Shown here: piece by piece, positions 39,042 to 47,352 of the stretch
How the letters are laid out: the number at the start of each line of letters is the position of its first letter
Numbering within the stretch: position 1 is the stretch's first letter
DNA from: an uncultured Acetatifactor sp.
GTDB lineage: Bacteria; Bacillota; Clostridia; Lachnospirales; Lachnospiraceae
Direction of reading: 5' to 3'
Assembly (NCBI GenBank): GCA_947630715.1
Contig: CANRIP010000005.1
Coordinates: 1-64,000, forward strand
Length of the DNA: 64,000 bases
Position numbers and translations under genes: made by a program
The notes under the pieces: model-generated
The model's database searches: none
The model's input: only the letters and a program-made list of their open reading frames with translations
Told to the model about the DNA's origin: nothing

Positions 39042-41018
39042 TTGAAAGACAGATGGGGTCTTACCAAGTCACAACGGATGCAACTGAAGGCGTTTATCTG
39101 CCTTTTGGGACTGATACTGCTGGCGGTGCTGTTTGTGGGAGCGCTTTTTTCGGCAGCCTTAAGAAAAGAACCGGAGAAGGAAGGAGCGGCCGGCTCCTCC
39201 GGCGTTTCCGATCCACCGCTGGAGCAGGTTTTTTCCAATGTGTGGATTCTGGAGGAGGAAACGGACGGACTGGTGATTTTCCGGGAAGGTAACAGGGAGC
39301 GGTATCCCTACGGGGAAACCGTGGAAATCGAAGACCGGGGAGCCGGAGGGCCGAAAAGGTCCGTCAGGGAACAACTGGCCGATCTGTATCTGACGGAGGG
39401 AGCCGTTACCGGCATCAGCTTAAAGACGGAGAAAATCAGCGGGAAAATCCTTGGTATGGACGAAGGCGGCGTGGAAGTGGAGGGGTACGGCAGGATGCCC
39501 CTTGCCCCGGACTGGCAGGGATACAGGCTTTATCAAAGCCCCGCCATGTGCGGGGAAAGGGATCTTCCCATCGGCTGCGAAAACGCGGATTTCTGCCTGG
39601 AAGACGGACAGATCTGCGGGATCCTCTTAACGGGGGAGGAGGCCATGGAATACATAAGGGTGCTGATCAAAAGCAGCGATTACGCGGATCTGTACCATTC
39701 CCGGCTGGTCTTTACTTCGGATACAGGCTTTACCATCTCCTACGGCGCATATGAGGACAGACAGACGCAATCCTACGGCCCCGGGGAGGAAGCGGTGATC
39801 GACCCGTCCGGCGTTTATTTTCAGGGGGACCGGGTCACGGTGACGCCAAAGGCTCTCACCGGGAAACTGACCATCCAAAACCTGGCCAGGAGCCAGGGGA
39901 CGCCTTCGTACAGGGGGCGGTTTGAACTGATGCTGACCGAAAAGGGGATTGTGGCCGTCAACGAGGTGGCCCTGGAGGAATACCTGTACAGCGTCGTACC
40001 CAGCGAAATGCCGGCGGGGTATCCGGCGGAGGCGCTGAAAGCGCAGGCAATCTGCGCCAGGACCTACGCTTACAGCCATATGGAGCATGCGGGATATCCG
40101 GAGTACGGCGCCCATGTGGACGACAGTACCTCTTACCAGGTGTATAACAACATTCTGGAGCAGGAAAGCTCCACCCAGGCGGTGAAGGAAACCTACGGGC
40201 AGCTTTTGTATACGAAACAGGGGGAACCGGCCTCCGTGTTTTATTATTCCACTTCCTGCGGGGTAGGGAGCGACGCTACCGTCTGGAAGACGGGAGATTC
40301 TCCGGATCTGCCCTATCTGCGGGCAAAGCGTATCAGCAAAACCGCCATGGCCCGGCAGACCCAGGCCGCCGTCCAGGAGGGGACGGGACTGGGGGAAGAT
40401 GGGGGAGAGGCGCTGAAGGAGGAAGAAACCTTCCGGGACTTCATCAGCCGGACGGATCCTGACGACTTTGAATCGAACCAGGCATGGTACCGATGGACAT
40501 ACAGCGCGGGCGCGCCGGACAGCGGCCGGATGAGCAGGGTTCTCCAGGCCAGATACCAGGCGAACGAAAACCTGGTCCTGACCTGGAAGGACGGGGAATT
40601 TGTCAGCCAGACAATCGGTGAAATCGGCGCGGTGACGGAAATCTGCGTGACAAAACGGGGAGCCGGAGGCGTGGCGGAAGAACTGGTGATCCGGGCGAAA
40701 AACGGCGTTTATCAGGTGATTTCCGAATACAATATCCGCTGTGTGCTGTGCGACGGAGCCAGTAAGGCGGTGAGACAGGACGGCAGCCAGGTGAGCTGTC
40801 CCACCCTTCTGCCAAGCGGTTTTTTTGTGATCGATACGGAAACCTCGTTGAAGGGCCTGGTAACCGGGTATACGCTGACCGGGGGAGGGTTTGGCCACGG
40901 CGTGGGAATGAGCCAGAACGGAGCCGGACAGATGGCTGAAAACGGCTGTTCCGCCGGGGAAATCCTGACGTTTTTCTTTGAAGGGTGCCGTGTGGAAACC
41001 GTATACGGTACTCATTGA
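39042..41018 (+). CDS. SpoIID/LytB-domain membrane protein
   Basis: SpoIID-type proteins are lytic transglycosylases that thin peptidoglycan, classically during engulfment. The 658-residue product has an N-terminal membrane helix (about residues 15-38) and an outside region of about 260 residues of unknown fold. The SpoIID domain follows (EVALEEYLYSVVPSEMPAGY, ALKAQAICARTYAYSHME, STSCGVGSDATVW, and the final GGGFGHGVGMSQNGAGQMA). It is longer than B. subtilis SpoIID (about 340). The start is TTG 39042, 7 nt after CAGGAGG; the longer frame runs back into the 6S RNA and is rejected. Confidence 0.85.
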   Translation: MKDRWGLTKSQRMQLKAFICLLGLILLAVLFVGALFSAALRKEPEKEGAAGSSGVSDPPLEQVFSNVWILEEETDGLVIFREGNRERYPYGETVEIEDRGAGGPKRSVREQLADLYLTEGAVTGISLKTEKISGKILGMDEGGVEVEGYGRMPLAPDWQGYRLYQSPAMCGERDLPIGCENADFCLEDGQICGILLTGEEAMEYIRVLIKSSDYADLYHSRLVFTSDTGFTISYGAYEDRQTQSYGPGEEAVIDPSGVYFQGDRVTVTPKALTGKLTIQNLARSQGTPSYRGRFELMLTEKGIVAVNEVALEEYLYSVVPSEMPAGYPAEALKAQAICARTYAYSHMEHAGYPEYGAHVDDSTSYQVYNNILEQESSTQAVKETYGQLLYTKQGEPASVFYYSTSCGVGSDATVWKTGDSPDLPYLRAKRISKTAMARQTQAAVQEGTGLGEDGGEALKEEETFRDFISRTDPDDFESNQAWYRWTYSAGAPDSGRMSRVLQARYQANENLVLTWKDGEFVSQTIGEIGAVTEICVTKRGAGGVAEELVIRAKNGVYQVISEYNIRCVLCDGASKAVRQDGSQVSCPTLLPSGFFVIDTETSLKGLVTGYTLTGGGFGHGVGMSQNGAGQMAENGCSAGEILTFFFEGCRVETVYGTH

Positions 41019-41101
41019 TTTTTGCATCATATCGTGTTATCATCAGGGAAAGCGCTGTACGGCGGAAGGTTCAGAACAGGCTGTACAGAGGGAGGATCAC
41101 A

Positions 41102-41917
41102 GTGATTCGAGAGCTTTATCGGAATTTCAAAAGCTTTTCCGCACAGATGAGAAAGCAGAATATCAATGCCTTTGCGGCCAGCATTGCCTTTTTCTTTTTC
41201 CTTTCGGTGGTGCCTATGCTGATTTTGGTCTGTACCATTATCCCGTATACTCCCCTGACCGAAGAAGATCTGGTGACCGCGGTGACGGATGTTACCCCGG
41301 ATGTGGTGGATCCGCTGGCGGAAAGCGTGATCGGGGACGTGTACAACAGATCAGCGGGCATTCTGTCCATTGCGGCGGTGGCCACCGTCTGGTCCGCGGC
41401 GAAGGGGGTCATGGCGCTGATGCAGGGCTTAAACGCGATCAACGGGGTGGAGGATACCCGGAATTATTTTGTGATCCGGCTGATTGCGTCCTTTTATACC
41501 CTGGTGATGCTGGTGGTGATCATCTTGTCCCTGTTCCTCATGGTCTTTGGAAATCAGCTTGTGACGCTGACGCTGCACAGGATTCCGGAGCTGGAATCGG
41601 TAGTGGCCTTTTTTATGAATTTCCGGTTTGTGCTGGTCTGGGCGATTCTCTCCTTTCTGTTTGCGGCTGTATACGCCTATGTGCCGGATCTGAAACTGAA
41701 ATGGAAGGAGCAGATCCCCGGAGCCGTCTTTTCCGCCGTGGTGTGGAGCATTTTCTCCTGGGGGTTCTCCCTGTACCTGACATACGGCAACGCCTACGGC
41801 GTGTATGGCAGCCTGTCCATTATCATCATCGTACTTTTATGGATGTACTTTTGTATGTATATTGTCATGATCGGAGCCTGCCTGAACCGGTACCTGAATT
41901 CCGGCGGCAGATCGTGA
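41102..41917 (+). CDS. YihY/virulence factor BrkB family membrane protein
   Basis: This 271-residue protein has about six hydrophobic segments and the family pattern NAFAASIAFFFFLSVVPMLI near the N-terminus. GSLSIIIIVLLWMYFCMYIVMIGACLN is near the C-terminus. The family is of unknown function; the old name RNase BN came from an unrelated gene. The start is GTG 41102, 6 nt after GGGAGG; ATGs upstream in frame overlap the SpoIID gene and lack a site. Confidence 0.85.
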   Translation: MIRELYRNFKSFSAQMRKQNINAFAASIAFFFFLSVVPMLILVCTIIPYTPLTEEDLVTAVTDVTPDVVDPLAESVIGDVYNRSAGILSIAAVATVWSAAKGVMALMQGLNAINGVEDTRNYFVIRLIASFYTLVMLVVIILSLFLMVFGNQLVTLTLHRIPELESVVAFFMNFRFVLVWAILSFLFAAVYAYVPDLKLKWKEQIPGAVFSAVVWSIFSWGFSLYLTYGNAYGVYGSLSIIIIVLLWMYFCMYIVMIGACLNRYLNSGGRS

Positions 41918-41936
41918 GAAGGATTGGCAAAAAGGC

Positions 41937-41965
41937 TTGATTTTTTTCCGGTTCCTCAGTAAGAT
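41937..41965 (+). promoter_or_regulatory. probable promoter of the pheS operon
   Basis: TTGATT (41937-41942), 17 bp, TAAGAT (41960-41965). A leader of about 260 nt follows, with GTCTGC/GCAGAC pairing near 42030-42060. I find no T-box motif in it. Confidence 0.55.
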
Positions 41966-42083
41966 AGGGTAGGAGCCGTGAAATGGGAAGGGCTTTTTTA
42001 TTTCCGCGGGCCGCAAGCCTGCGCTTTGTCTGCCGGGAAATAGGACGGTAAGCAGACGGGATCATGTGCAGAAAGAGGGTAGT

Positions 42084-42115
42084 GTGAAAAATAAGCTTGA
42101 TAGCTTATTTTTCAC
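42084..42115 (+). promoter_or_regulatory. 13-bp perfect hairpin in the pheS leader
   Basis: GTGAAAAATAAGC (42084-42096) pairs perfectly with GCTTATTTTTCAC (42103-42115) around a TTGATA loop. With U-rich right arm it could be an attenuator, or a processing or boundary structure. It ends 1 nt before the repeated element. Confidence 0.7.
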
Positions 42116-42116
42116 A

Positions 42117-42234
42117 AAACGAACCTTGTTCGTTTGGGAGTTTATGCCGGAGCGTCACAAACTCCTCTGATGACAGACGCGAATTTGAGATTCGCGTCGC
42201 CCCGTCGCGAAAACGCTCCGGAATGGAGAGTAAT
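42117..42234 (+). promoter_or_regulatory. structured leader element, copy 1 (pheS)
   Basis: Three hairpins and a long-range pairing are seen. H1: AAACGAAC/GTTCGTTT (42117-42135). H2: GGAGTTTATG/CACAAACTCC (42137-42165) with 9-nt loop CCGGAGCGT (42147-42155). H3: GACGCGAAT/ATTCGCGTC (42176-42198). The H2 loop is perfectly complementary to ACGCTCCGG (42213-42221), which ends 3 nt before the GGAG of pheS, so a pseudoknot is predicted. The right arm of H3 can instead pair with CGCGAA (42206-42211). A nearly identical copy precedes pheT. It matches no riboswitch or T-box I know. Confidence 0.7.
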
Positions 42235-43272
42235 ATGAAAGAAAAGCTGGAAAAACTTTTGCGGGAAGGCGAGGCGGCCATCCGCAGCACGAAGAACGAA
42301 ACGGAGCTTCAGGAGGTCAAGGGATCGATTCTGGGGAAACAGGGGGCGCTGACGGAGTTTTTAAAGGAAATTCCCAAGCTGGCCGCTGAACTGCGCCCGG
42401 AAATGGGACGTGTGGTCAACGAGGCCAAGACAAAATTCAACAGCATGATCGAGGCCAGAAGGGAGGAACTGAAGCTGAAGGCGGCGGAGGTTCCGGCGGA
42501 TTTCGACTATACCCTTCCGGGCATTGCGCCTTCCATGGGAGGCCTGCATCCCATCACCCAGATGCGCTACGATCTGGACGACGCTTTCCGTTCCATGGGG
42601 TTTGAAATCTATCAGGAAGACGATATCACCAGTGAACTGTATGCTTTCGACAAGCTGAACTTTCCGCCCAATCATCCGGCCCGGGAGAGTATGGACACCT
42701 ATTGGCTGGAAGGGCACGATAAAGGGGACGCCGGGGATAAGCTCTGCCTGCGGCCTCATTTGACAGGAGGGAGCGTTCGCTATCTGCAAACCCATAAACC
42801 TCCGTACCGGTTTGTGTATCCCGGCAGGGTATACCGCAACGAGACTACCGACGCACGGCATGAGAGGGCCTTTTTTCAGTATGAGGCGCTGATTGTGGAC
42901 CGTGATTTTACCTTTACCGCCGGAAAGGTTATGATCAAGAGCATCCTTTCCAAAGTGTTCGGACGGGACGTGCCCGTTCGCATGAGAGCCGGCTTTTTCC
43001 CGTTTGTAGAGCCGGGCTTTGAGATCGATATGGGATGCCTGGTCTGCGGCGGAAAGGGCTGCAGCGTCTGCAAGCATGTGGGGTGGATCGAGATTATGCC
43101 CGGCGGAACCCCTCATCCCAATGTACTGCGGGCCGCAGGGCTCGATCCGGACGAATTCACCGGTTTTTATGTGAACATCGGTCTGGACAGGCTGGTAATG
43201 ATGCGTTACGGCGTGGACGACGTACGGCTTTTCCACAGCGCGGATCTTCGTTTCCTGCAGCAGTTCCACTGA
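42235..43272 (+). CDS. pheS: phenylalanyl-tRNA synthetase alpha subunit
   Basis: PheS carries the catalytic site of the class II alpha2-beta2 enzyme charging tRNA-Phe. The 345-residue protein has an N-terminal coiled coil (about 1-75), motif 1 around GLHPITQMRYDL, motif 2 around VYRNETTDARHERAFFQYE and motif 3 around GFYVNIGLDRLVMMRYG. A four-Cys segment (CLVCGGKGCSVC, about residues 264-275) is inserted before motif 3 and could bind zinc. The start is ATG 42235 after GGAG; the open frame upstream runs through the structured leader and is not PheS-like. Confidence 0.95.
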   Translation: MKEKLEKLLREGEAAIRSTKNETELQEVKGSILGKQGALTEFLKEIPKLAAELRPEMGRVVNEAKTKFNSMIEARREELKLKAAEVPADFDYTLPGIAPSMGGLHPITQMRYDLDDAFRSMGFEIYQEDDITSELYAFDKLNFPPNHPARESMDTYWLEGHDKGDAGDKLCLRPHLTGGSVRYLQTHKPPYRFVYPGRVYRNETTDARHERAFFQYEALIVDRDFTFTAGKVMIKSILSKVFGRDVPVRMRAGFFPFVEPGFEIDMGCLVCGGKGCSVCKHVGWIEIMPGGTPHPNVLRAAGLDPDEFTGFYVNIGLDRLVMMRYGVDDVRLFHSADLRFLQQFH

Positions 43273-43324
43273 CAAACGGAAAGGTTTTACAAAAATCGGG
43301 CCGCGAATGGCGGCATGGGGAAAA

Positions 43325-43442
43325 AAACGAACTTTGTTCGTTTGAGAATTTGTGCCGGAGCGTCACAAATTCCCTTGATGGCAGACGCGAATTTGAGATT
43401 CGCGTCGCCCCGTCGCGAAAACGCTCCGGAATGGAGAATAAG
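43325..43442 (+). promoter_or_regulatory. structured leader element, copy 2 (pheT)
   Basis: The same architecture as the pheS copy. H1: AAACGAAC/GTTCGTTT (43325-43343). H2: GAATTTGTG/CACAAATTC (43346-43372) with the identical loop CCGGAGCGT (43355-43363). H3: GACGCGAAT/ATTCGCGTC (43384-43406). The loop partner ACGCTCCGG is at 43421-43429. Compared with copy 1 the H2 stem has one G-C to A-T double change and an A.C mismatch restored to G-C, while loop and partner are unchanged. About 10 of 118 positions differ. Confidence 0.7.
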
Positions 43443-45884
43443 ATGAAAGTATCCCTGAACTGGTTGAAGGATTATGTAAAGCTCCCCGAGGATATGGATC
43501 TGAAAAAGCTGGCCTTTGACCTGACCATGTCCACGGTGGAGGTGGAGAATGTTACGGAACTTGCCCGGCAGTTTGACGGTATCCTGGTTGGCGAGCTGAA
43601 GGAGGTGCAGCCGCATCCCAACGCGGACCGGCTGCGGGTTTGTAAAGTGGATATCGCGGACGGTGAGATCCACGATATTGTATGCGGCGGGTCCAACCTT
43701 GTCCCGGGGATGAAGGTGGCCGTGGCCTGTCCCGGATCCTGGGTGCGCTGGCACGGAGAGGGCGAGCCGGTGGAAATCAAGAATACCAAGCTGCGGGGCG
43801 TGGCCAGCTACGGCATGATCTGCGCCTCCGTTGAGGTGGGGCTTGCGGAACTGTTCCCGGCGGAGGAGGAAACGCAGATCCTGGATCTGTCGGATTTTGA
43901 CGCTCCGGCCGGAACGCCTCTTTCCAAAGCTTTGGATCTGGAGGATGTGATTCTGGAAATCGACAATAAGTCCATGACGAACCGACCCGATCTGTGGGGA
44001 CACTATGGCATTGCCCGGGAGATCTCGGCTTTGTACCAGCTCCCTCTGGCGGACTGGAAACCCTTTGCGCCGGGGGACGTGGCGGAATTTCCGGTGGTCA
44101 TCCAGGATCCGGACCGATGCCCCCGCTATATCGGCGTCAAGCTGGAGGGAATCGAGGTAAAACCAGCTCCCTTCTATATGCGCAGCAGAATCTGGCGGGT
44201 GGGGATGAGGCCCATTAACGCCCTGGTGGATATCACCAACTATGTGATGCTGGCTCTGGGGCAGCCCACCCATGTGTTTGACTCCAACCAAATTACGGAT
44301 TATATCTGTGTGCGCCGGGCGCAGGAGAAGGAAGAACTTCTTCTGCTCAACGACAGGACGCTTGCGCTGACAAAGGAAGATCTTGTGATCGCGGACAGCG
44401 AGGGGGCCGTGGCCCTTGCGGGGGTGATGGGCGGCGCAAGAGACTCTGTGCTGCCGGAAACCACAAGCGTTATTCTGGAGGTGGCAAATTTTGAGGCGGC
44501 GGGAGTGCGCAGCACTGCGCTTCGTTTCGATAACCGTACGGAGGCCTCGGCCCGGTATGAAAAATCCGTGGATCCCGAGCGGTGCGATCCGGCGCTTTCC
44601 ATGGCCATGAGCCTGTTTGCGGAAATTTATCCTTCCGTGAAGGTGACCGCCTTTTCGGATCATTATGTGAAAAAGCTGGCGAGGAAGGAGCTGGATGTGG
44701 AGCTGGATTGGTTGAACCGCAGGCTCGGCAAGCGGATTCCCAACCAGCAGATCGCCGCAAAGTTAAAGCTCCTTGGGTTTGACATCAGCTTTACCAGCGA
44801 CGTGATGCATATTGTGGTTCCCACCTGGCGGTCCACGGGGGATGTGGGGATCAAGGCGGACATCATGGAAGAAGTGGCCCGGATGTACGGCTATGAAAAC
44901 TTTGAGCCCACCACCATCGTCACCAGCTTTGAAGGGGCCGTCAACCAGCTTGACATGGATTTGGTCAGGAAAATCAAGGAGTACCTGGCGTTTCGCTGCG
45001 GTCTTTGGGAGGTGTTTACCTATCCCTGGATGGAGGATGAAACCGTAAACGCCGTTCTTCAGAGCACGGAGGGGATCCTAAAGCTTTCCACTCCCCCCGC
45101 GCCCAACGAAAGCTATATCCGTTCCTCCCTTCTTCCCAACCTTTGCAGGGCGGTGGCGGAAAATGAAAGATATTTCAGCGAATTCAGTATTTTTGAGGAG
45201 GCCCAGGTCTTTCACGACTCGGACTACCAAAGCCCTTATGACGAGCGGGAAAAGCTGCCCTCCCAGCGGCGGAATCTGGCGGCCGCTTTCGCCGGCAGCG
45301 GGGAAAAGGTTCAGGAATTGTTCCGAAGGGCGAAGGGCGTGGTGGAAAACATGCCCCGCCTGACCCATATGGAAGCATTTTCCATGCGCCGCGTGGAAAA
45401 ACCGGTATGGGCGGATGACACGGTATGGCTGAATCTGTACCTGGGGGAGCAGAGGGTAGGCAATCTGGCCCTGCTTTCCCGGAAAGTATCCATGGCCGTG
45501 GGGATCAAAAATCTTGCCGCCGTGTTCTTTGAACTGGATCTGGACGCCTTAAAACCCCTGCGGTCCCGTACCAATGAATTCAGCCACCTGGCGGAGTACC
45601 CTATGATCGACTACGATTTGTCCATGCTGTTCGACGCGCAGATCAAGTGGGAGAACATCGAGGAATCGGCGCTGAAACGAAAGAACCGGGAAAGCTATTT
45701 GCAGAAGGTGGCGTTTGTGGACGAATACAAGGGAGCGCAGATCCCTGCCGGGAAAAAATCCGTCACCATCCGGCTGACCATCGGCTCTGAGGAAAAAACC
45801 TTAAAGTCGGAGGAAATCGAAAAATGCGCGGACAGCGTGATCAAACAGTTGGAAAAGGATCTGAAGGGCGAACTTCGCAGATAA
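43443..45884 (+). CDS. pheT: phenylalanyl-tRNA synthetase beta subunit
   Basis: PheT holds tRNA-binding and editing domains. The 813-residue protein begins MKVSLNWLKDYVKLPED and has the EMAP-type tRNA-binding domain (about 40-150; VQPHPNADRLRVCKV). The B3/B4 editing region follows (YVMLALGQPTHVFD, AGVMGG), then B5 (VELDWLNRRLGKRI), a catalytic-like core and a C-terminal anticodon-binding ferredoxin-fold domain (LAEYPMIDYDLSML). The start is ATG 43443 after GGAATGGAG. The long frame upstream crosses the structured element and the pheS end. Downstream genes apeB, queA and vanZ run on in the same direction. Confidence 0.96.
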   Translation: MKVSLNWLKDYVKLPEDMDLKKLAFDLTMSTVEVENVTELARQFDGILVGELKEVQPHPNADRLRVCKVDIADGEIHDIVCGGSNLVPGMKVAVACPGSWVRWHGEGEPVEIKNTKLRGVASYGMICASVEVGLAELFPAEEETQILDLSDFDAPAGTPLSKALDLEDVILEIDNKSMTNRPDLWGHYGIAREISALYQLPLADWKPFAPGDVAEFPVVIQDPDRCPRYIGVKLEGIEVKPAPFYMRSRIWRVGMRPINALVDITNYVMLALGQPTHVFDSNQITDYICVRRAQEKEELLLLNDRTLALTKEDLVIADSEGAVALAGVMGGARDSVLPETTSVILEVANFEAAGVRSTALRFDNRTEASARYEKSVDPERCDPALSMAMSLFAEIYPSVKVTAFSDHYVKKLARKELDVELDWLNRRLGKRIPNQQIAAKLKLLGFDISFTSDVMHIVVPTWRSTGDVGIKADIMEEVARMYGYENFEPTTIVTSFEGAVNQLDMDLVRKIKEYLAFRCGLWEVFTYPWMEDETVNAVLQSTEGILKLSTPPAPNESYIRSSLLPNLCRAVAENERYFSEFSIFEEAQVFHDSDYQSPYDEREKLPSQRRNLAAAFAGSGEKVQELFRRAKGVVENMPRLTHMEAFSMRRVEKPVWADDTVWLNLYLGEQRVGNLALLSRKVSMAVGIKNLAAVFFELDLDALKPLRSRTNEFSHLAEYPMIDYDLSMLFDAQIKWENIEESALKRKNRESYLQKVAFVDEYKGAQIPAGKKSVTIRLTIGSEEKTLKSEEIEKCADSVIKQLEKDLKGELRR

Positions 45885-45921
45885 ATGCAGCGCACGGCGC
45901 GGACAGGAGAGGGAAGGCAAA

Positions 45922-47352
45922 ATGGAAAGAAGTAATGTCTGGAAAAATTACAGTCAAAAGCAGGTCAAGGAGCTGGAAAGGCTGAATCTGGAGTACCGCG
46001 AATTCCTGGACAACGGTAAAACCGAACGGGAGTGCATCGACACCATTGTCAACACGATTGAAAAAGAAGGGTACCGGGAGCTGGACAGTCTGATCAGGGA
46101 CGGGAAGACTCTGAAGGAGGGGGACAAGGTTTACAGCGTCTGGATGAATAAGTCCATCGCCATGTTCCGGCTGGGGGAAAAGCCTCTTTCCGAGGGAATG
46201 AACATCCTGGGCGCTCATATTGACAGTCCCAGGCTGGATGTGAAACAGAATCCTCTTTATGAGGAGGGCGGATTTGCCTATCTGGATACGCACTATTACG
46301 GCGGCGTCAAGAAATATCAGTGGGTGACCATTCCGCTGGCGCTGCACGGGGTCATTGTGAAAAAGGACGGTTCCACCGTGGAGATCAATATCGGAGAGGA
46401 TCCGGACGATCCGGTGTTCTTTGTCTCCGATCTTCTGGTTCACCTGGCCGGAGAACAGATGGAGAAAAAGGCGGCAAAGGTGATCGAGGGGGAGGCTCTG
46501 GATCTGATTGTGGGAAACCGGCCTCTTGTCATTGACGGCAAACAAAAGAAAGCGGGAGAAACGCCCAAGGAACAGGCCAAAGAGGAAGTGAAGGCCGGTG
46601 TGCTGCATCTTCTGAAGGAAACCTATGGGGTGGAGGAAGAAGACTTCCTTTCCGCGGAGCTTGAGATCGTACCCGCCGGAAAGGCCAGGGAAGCAGGACT
46701 GGACCGCAGCATGATTCTGGCCTACGGCCAGGACGACAGGGTATGCGCCTTTACCTCCATGCGGGCCATGCTGGACGGCAGGAATTTCAGCCGCACCGCC
46801 TGCTGTATCCTGGTGGATAAGGAGGAAATCGGATCCGTGGGAGCAACGGGAATGCAGTCCCGGTTTTTTGAAAACGCGGTGGCGGAGCTGATGAATCTCT
46901 GCGGGGATTACAGCGAGCTGAACCTGCGCCGGTGCCTGGCCCATAGCTGTATGCTTTCCTCCGACGTAAGCGCAGGGTTCGATCCCGCTTACGCGTCGTG
47001 CTTTGAAAAGAAGAACGCGGCGTTTCTGGGGAACGGGATGGTGTTTAATAAATTTACCGGCTCCAGGGGAAAAAGCGGCTCCAACGACGCCAACGCGGAG
47101 TATCTGGCCCATCTTCGGGACGTGCTGGAAAAAAGAAAGGTCTGCTATCAGACGGCGGAGCTTGGAAAAGTGGACGTGGGCGGAGGCGGAACCATCGCTT
47201 ATATCCTGGCTTTGTACGGCATGAACGTGGTGGACAGCGGCGTCGCGGTTTTGAATATGCATGCGCCCTGGGAGGCCACCAGCAAGGCGGATGTTTATGA
47301 GGCGTACCGGGGATATATCGCCTTTGTGGAAGAGGCATCGATGGGATGCTGA
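45922..47352 (+). CDS. apeB: M18 family aminopeptidase
   Basis: M18 enzymes are large oligomeric zinc aminopeptidases favouring acidic or aromatic N-termini. The 476-residue protein has the metal-binding motif [18 protein letters not shown]. The acidic site [15 protein letters not shown] and a [10 protein letters not shown] region follow, with the last ligand His in [13 protein letters not shown]. It starts with ATG after GGAGAGGGAAGG. Its stop overlaps the queA start by 7 bp. Confidence 0.93.

Follow-up and report, generated by a model that had tools for sequence, protein, structure and literature searches.

A probable new family of short, apparently mobile elements placed at start codons in Acetatifactor and related Lachnospiraceae

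Folded RNA next to a Shine-Dalgarno (SD) sequence is familiar from translational riboswitches and ribosomal leaders, and REP elements with their RAYT (Y1) transposases are structured single-strand repeats. Group II introns have a GTGTG-like left end. We know of no small interspersed repeats that aim at start codons, and we found no description of such an element by title or abstract in the open-access literature. As described in PMC3049150, the BOX and RUP repeats of Streptococcus pneumoniae have terminal inverted repeats, and BOX, RUP and SPRITE repeats are also found within pseudogenes and regulatory sequences. Set against those descriptions, the family reported here is defined by its start-codon position, an SD of its own and a covarying pseudoknot. 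It is like MITEs, as the same source defines them, in its non-autonomous look, high copy number, base pairing and species-specific sites; it is unlike them in that we saw no terminal inverted repeats, no short duplication of the target at the two sites with clean junctions and no partner IS. It is a structured repeat as REP elements are, but unlike the REP/RAYT system, a Y1 transposase is missing from several element-rich genomes. It also differs from translational riboswitches and ribosomal leaders in its unrelated genes, its species-specific sites and the lack of an Rfam match. The element shares the general look of small interspersed repeats and fails the MITE, Y1 and Rfam features that we tested.

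The window is the whole stretch of DNA that we analyzed, 64,000 nucleotides from an uncultured Acetatifactor sp. (genome G000, 2.50 Mb in 71 contigs, 86.9% complete). It holds a 126-nt direct repeat (42116-42241 and 43324-43449, 92% identical) that reaches the ATG of pheS (42235) and of pheT (43443). The initial annotation had described one element before both genes, and the duplicate is real, with two copies of about 120 nt. Its outline was right about the extent up to both genes and missed hairpin H0 (42083-42116) in copy 1, and the complementarity that it saw between the 9-nt loop of hairpin H2 and a downstream partner is exact in both copies. The features are listed here, with a slash marking a junction.

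42070-42079, + strand: probable retained native SD of pheS, AGAAAGAGGG, now 5' of the element (the element-less relatives G123 and G110 read GCAGAAAGAGGTCAAAT/ATGAAAGAAAAG)
42084-42234, + strand: element copy 1, the whole inserted unit before pheS, from NTGAAAAAT to GGAGAGTAAT; left end inferred from the argG and arcC empty sites
42083-42116, + strand: hairpin H0 of copy 1, a perfect 15-nt inverted repeat whose outer stem covaries in relatives
42117-42135, + strand: hairpin H1 of copy 1, optional, from folding
42137-42165, + strand: hairpin H2 of copy 1, with the 9-nt loop CCGGAGCGT at 42147-42155, from folding and covariation
42169-42206, + strand: hairpin H3 of copy 1, from folding and covariation
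42213-42221, + strand: pseudoknot partner ACGCTCCGG of copy 1, from pairing and covariation in relatives
42225-42228, + strand: SD GGAG supplied by copy 1, 6 nt 5' of the pheS ATG
42235-43272, + strand: pheS (PF01409, 7e-74; PF02912, 3.9e-17)
43325-43442, + strand: element copy 2 before pheT, without H0, from the direct repeat and a covariance-model match
43345-43373, + strand: hairpin H2 of copy 2, with the loop CCGGAGCGT at 43355-43363, from folding and covariation
43377-43414, + strand: hairpin H3 of copy 2, from folding and covariation
43421-43429, + strand: pseudoknot partner ACGCTCCGG of copy 2, the exact complement of the H2 loop, with covariation
43433-43436, + strand: SD GGAG supplied by copy 2, from its spacing to the start
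43443-45884, + strand: an open reading frame that, with its translation, we take to be pheT because of its position behind pheS and features of its sequence

Compared with dinucleotide shuffles, the folds of copies 1 and 2 had z scores of -3.26 and -3.56, and equally good shuffles numbered 1 of 200 and 0 of 200. In the 64-kb window the covariance model matched the two copies with E values of 2.9e-30 and 1.8e-28 and also gave two weak antisense echoes of them (E 0.011 and 0.084). Rfam 15 gave three chance-level matches in 41000-47000, none of them on the elements. In eight relative loci no Rfam match reached its gathering score, the best being 26 bits against a preQ1-II cut-off of 47 and lying outside the elements of locus L395. 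Over these stretches, the earlier view that no named RNA family is present holds.

There is selection on the RNA structure of the element, as had been claimed from the start. We aligned 105 distinct sequences, using a model from which the pseudoknot was absent. The full structure with the pseudoknot was paired in 95.9% of cells (83.9% when shuffled), two-sided cells numbered 377 (111.5 in shuffles) and two-sided changes were present at 24 of 34 pairs. When the partners were slid by 1-3 columns as a control, pairing fell to 26-47%. The initial annotation had proposed looking among homologues for covariation in H2, H3 and the loop-partner pairing, and all three have it. For the loop and its partner, 96.6% of cells were paired, with two-sided changes at five of the nine pairs, and at least eight of the nine were kept in 101 of the 105 sequences; variants include CCGAAGCGT with ACGCTTCGG (L132), CGCAGGCGC with GCGTCTGCG (L054) and TTCTGAGCGA with TCGCTCAGAA (L141). 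At one H3 position the commonest pair is U-G (73 of 105), which points to RNA rather than single-stranded DNA as what selection acts on. H1 was found in only part of the family. H0 is the weakest-supported helix: of 167 parsed copies, 101 had all of its outer four pairs complementary (alternatives include GTGT/ACAC, GATT/AATC, GTAT/ATAC, GCTT/AAGC and GGGG/CCCC), from a parser that took the best-scoring hairpin without a shuffle control and left 80 of 247 sequences unparsed.

Two further foldings bear on access to the SD. A CUCC-GGAG hairpin that would cover it was 95.2% paired, with covariation no greater than in shuffles. The second fold that had been proposed for H3, through CGCGAA, is not conserved, being fully paired in just 10 of the 105 relatives. 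In nested folding, H2 competes with a long helix; where this helix forms, H2 is open and the SD covered, and for the pheT copy it was slightly favored (-38.3 vs -36.8 kcal/mol). Pairing all nine bases of a hairpin loop that has no linker puts it under steric strain. It is probable that H2 and the full pseudoknot do not form completely together, and we therefore expect partial forms or two states. Given the strained loop and the SD-covering nested fold, it is a guess that the pseudoknot serves to keep the SD open.

The element is not confined to pheS and pheT. With copy 1 as the query we found 14 copies in its own genome at E below 1e-16 and several remnants, and covariance model R1, which was built from 19 cores and contains the ATG columns, likewise found 14. 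Beyond pheS, the genes behind the copies include those for argininosuccinate synthase, an amino-acid-kinase family protein (presumably carbamate kinase), an MFS transporter, a PucR-type regulator, a CPBP/Rce1-like protein, an ABC permease, DUF951 and an epimerase; to judge from their sequences, pheT and Tex are also among them. The covariance-model search of the genome and its relatives that the initial annotation had suggested returned dispersed copies before unrelated genes, and the tie to the phe genes falls away. The element is not phe-specific, and we ruled out phe-specific control on these grounds. The downstream genes have no common pathway of the kind that a metabolite riboswitch would have. 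At some genes (L023, L024, L210) only right-end pieces such as ACGCTCCGGAATGGAGAACATATG are found and the rest of the element is gone, as if only the supplied SD had been kept.

What the copies do share is their position. They are in sense orientation between a native-looking SD and the start codon of the gene, with a new GGAG from the 3' end of the element mostly 6 nt before the ATG, and the pseudoknot partner is the nine bases just 5' of this new SD. A pattern scan of named genomes gave at least 115 stretches; the pattern made no demand for a start codon but did demand a CGGAATGG end. From 115 of these loci we took 116 copies. In 103 of them a start codon (ATG, GTG or TTG) follows the GGAG after 3-9 nt and opens a frame that runs for 60 codons or more, or for 40 or more up to the end of the contig; the distance was exactly 6 nt in 88. 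Three of the 13 misses run into another copy or H0 (L155, L195, L243), eight have a start at the right distance whose frame falls below these lengths or is broken off at the contig end (L147, L171, L198, L217, L234, L236, L237, L250), and two have no start codon at that distance (L162, L204). As controls from the first 80 loci, 680 of 7900 random positions (8.6%) and 975 of 6305 random GGAGs passed. We also took 60 stretches of G119, G129, G124 and G115 from the covariance-model listing; this sample leans towards copies with a start codon, since the model includes the ATG columns. Of the 71 model matches in it, 59 passed the start test, and nine of the remaining 12 are followed directly by another copy or its H0. 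We also considered and rejected leader-peptide coupling: an H0 start was parsed in 44 of 81 copies, and with its frame relative to the gene evenly split (15/15/14) and stops scattered, a small frame is not kept.

Empty sites in relatives helped to place the ends. Among 128 other genomes with an argG match we read 29 relatives, and the element that G000 has at argG is missing from all of them. The nearest relatives read CGGAGGCTCATACT/ATGAAAG and CGGAGGCTCATATT/ATGAAAG, and the filled site reads CGGAGGCTCATAGT/GTGAAAAATC...GGAGAGTAAG/ATGAAAG. At arcC the empty site is CGGAGGAATCTT/ATG and the filled site CGGAGGAATCGT/GTGAACC... These are our best junctions, with the native SD and spacer nearly intact, GTGAAAAAT or GTGAACCAT replacing the ATG, then the element and the old ATG. 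At such clean sites the native SD stays upstream and the element starts with NTG-AAA at the former start codon. By eye, the argG and arcC junctions have no short target duplication relative to the empty sites. Extra or rearranged upstream sequence obscures the left junction at the CPBP gene, tex, potB, DUF951, the epimerase gene and pheT. Four copies have identical flanks of 15-23 nt (G110 at L218/L031, AATGGAGACTAGTGTGAAAAA; G119 pheS at L060; L174; L188), which a simple insertion model does not predict.

For nine further genes, we read 50 relative loci among the 86 matches listed and none has the element at the gene start, while in three (arcC of G121 and G124, the epimerase gene of G127) the SD resembles the element's 3' end. 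A model search of 92 loci, covering these nine genes, argG and pheS, found two copies only: one at pheS of G119 and one at the tex locus of G122, on the other strand and away from the tex start. At pheS, the element is absent and an SD is close before the ATG in G050, G123, G110 and G049 (92-94% protein identity) and in G121 (92% over a partial gene), and seven more distant relatives (78% PheS) are also without it. The copy at the G119 pheS (91%) is of another H3 type and was probably inserted independently. The core was in none of 11 relatives with a visible pheT start. In one pair of sites, filled in G110 and empty in G123, the flanks are 94-96% identical. Where we could compare them, the sites are species-specific.

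The pheS region differs among relatives in other ways. The initial annotation saw no T-box, and our search agrees, with no RF00230 match up to E 10 in 41000-47000. A T-box is present 5' of pheS in five relatives (L056-L060) and was undetected in our genome at 41900-42080; this leader stands before pheS as the element does, but its structure is different, and G119 (L060) has both together. Using window positions 42235-43272 (L055-L084), the PheS type of the window (78-100% identical) was seen in 14 of 130 genus genomes with a match, and the remaining PheS are about 32-41% identical, with one fragment at 51%. Two PheS types in the genus suggest replacement of pheS by transfer.

The genomes that we compared are mostly drafts assembled from metagenomes. 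Copy 1 had BLAST matches in 40 of 138 genomes of the genus and model R1 in 60, the own genome included in both and R1 run on the best 29 or fewer candidates per genome. In G119 all 29 scored candidates matched. With the best 10 or fewer candidates per genome, matches were found in 56 of 396 genomes and 47 of 307 genera drawn from the family, in 37 of 392 from the order (three in another family) and in 4 of 393 from the class, all in the own family. Among the pattern-scan matches listed, labels were mostly Lachnospiraceae, Acetatifactor, Eisenbergiella, Roseburia or Lachnospira bins, and some were broad or odd, such as Eubacteriales, Clostridium and Bacillus. Up to dozens of copies per genome are present in many gut bacteria. 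Viral contigs gave no match to one exact pattern, and plasmids gave no match. Three Bacteriophage sp. records from human feces (MT838414, MT836788, MT837007; L432-L434) have the element in whole or in part. We examined one of them, which has what we take to be MBOAT-type bacterial genes and seems to be a bacterial fragment, and we did not count these records as phage copies.

Copies also stand head to tail, at L178, L195, L366, L379, L399 and eight G129 loci. G129 has a second subfamily (L392-L406) with the loop TCAGAGC and the partner GCTCTGA, and the two subfamilies occur head to tail before genes in both orders (L398 vs L406), so each can enter beside the other. Since the element begins with NTG-AAA behind the old SD and finishes with SD-N6, an SD-NTG site is recreated at each end by an insertion, and this would account for the arrays.

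By eye, the ends have no terminal inverted repeats: the left end is NTGAAAAATCAC or NTGAAAAATAAG and the right end GGAATGGAGATTAAT, and they are not complementary. Left ends are often GTGTG and also GATTG, GTATG or GGGGG. We found no longer parent or autonomous element in 283 partly overlapping loci (1.43 Mb). The one mobilizer family that we searched for, Y1 transposase (PF01797), is in 49 of 138 genus genomes. It is present in the element-rich G011, G091, G108 and G124 and in G000, and absent from the element-rich G119, G129, G115, G117, G120 and G121, which rules it out as a general mobilizer. Without visible inverted ends, and with the argG and arcC sites free of a short target duplication, the element does not fit any standard mechanism of insertion.

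We think it likely that these copies make up a new family of elements that are short (about 105-155 nt), do not code for protein, appear to be mobile and target start codons, and in which the pseudoknot probably keeps the SD usable. Copies would arrive by insertion aimed at the start codon, and with the element's own SD an insertion may do little harm. The pseudoknot may pack the upstream sequence compactly so that the SD stays open, may be the form recognized during movement of the element, or both. An alternative is a riboswitch-like or protein-binding leader that marks out a regulon and switches SD access by means of the pseudoknot, with copies retained wherever a single signal controlling translation is of use. 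It too would have a strongly conserved structure beside the SD, in sense before genes, and the SD-covering alternative in nested folding is in its favor. However, the genes are unrelated (PheS, PheT, argininosuccinate synthase, amino-acid-kinase, MFS, CPBP/Rce1-like, Tex, ABC permease, DUF951, epimerase), the sites are species-specific where compared, the SD hairpin has no covariation and the CGCGAA fold is in 10 of 105 relatives, so we consider a regulon unlikely. The initial annotation had left a choice between a translational switch and a dispersed repeat with its own ribosome binding site; the repeat stands, and a switch is possible but meets the same two structural objections.

An ordinary MITE- or REP-type repeat could insert at any place and survive only where it does no harm, which would leave the copies just before starts. 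Such a repeat would be dispersed, hairpin-rich, patchy in distribution and found in arrays, as these copies are. Harmless intergenic sites away from start codons should then fill too, yet 103 of 116 copies are at ORF starts, and among the 13 others three lead into another copy; we also saw no inverted ends, no short target duplication at argG and arcC and no consistent Y1 link, and we regard this reading as quite unlikely. We give very little credence to an intervening sequence cut out of the mRNA, whose removal would bring the native SD and the ATG back together at their original distance. SD-like sequences do mostly remain 5' of H0 at ordinary spacing, and many left ends are GTGTG, resembling group II introns. 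But the element is too short and has no group II intron match in Rfam over the stretches searched, its start is variable (GATTG, GTATG and GGGGG as well) and not a constant GUGYG, and it keeps a well-spaced SD of its own that excision would make needless.

For the family of start-codon-targeted elements that we favor, joining at an SD-NTG motif would recreate the motif at both ends of the element. It is possible, though we hold this with less than even confidence, that this is a wholly new kind of mobile element, in which a structured RNA unit recognizes a translation start, inserts there in sense, replaces the initiation signals and recreates its target at both ends. Recognition of SD plus NTG might involve mRNA on the initiating ribosome, or an exposed DNA strand.

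In annotation, a frame that is open through an element can extend the predicted N-terminus of a protein, as does the ORF at 42097-43272, which stays open through copy 1 into pheS. A family aimed at start codons, and numbering up to dozens of copies in a genome, would change how translation begins at many genes together. It would offer a ready system for studying how SD access is kept or controlled, and it would pose a sharp question about how a mobile unit recognizes a translation start.
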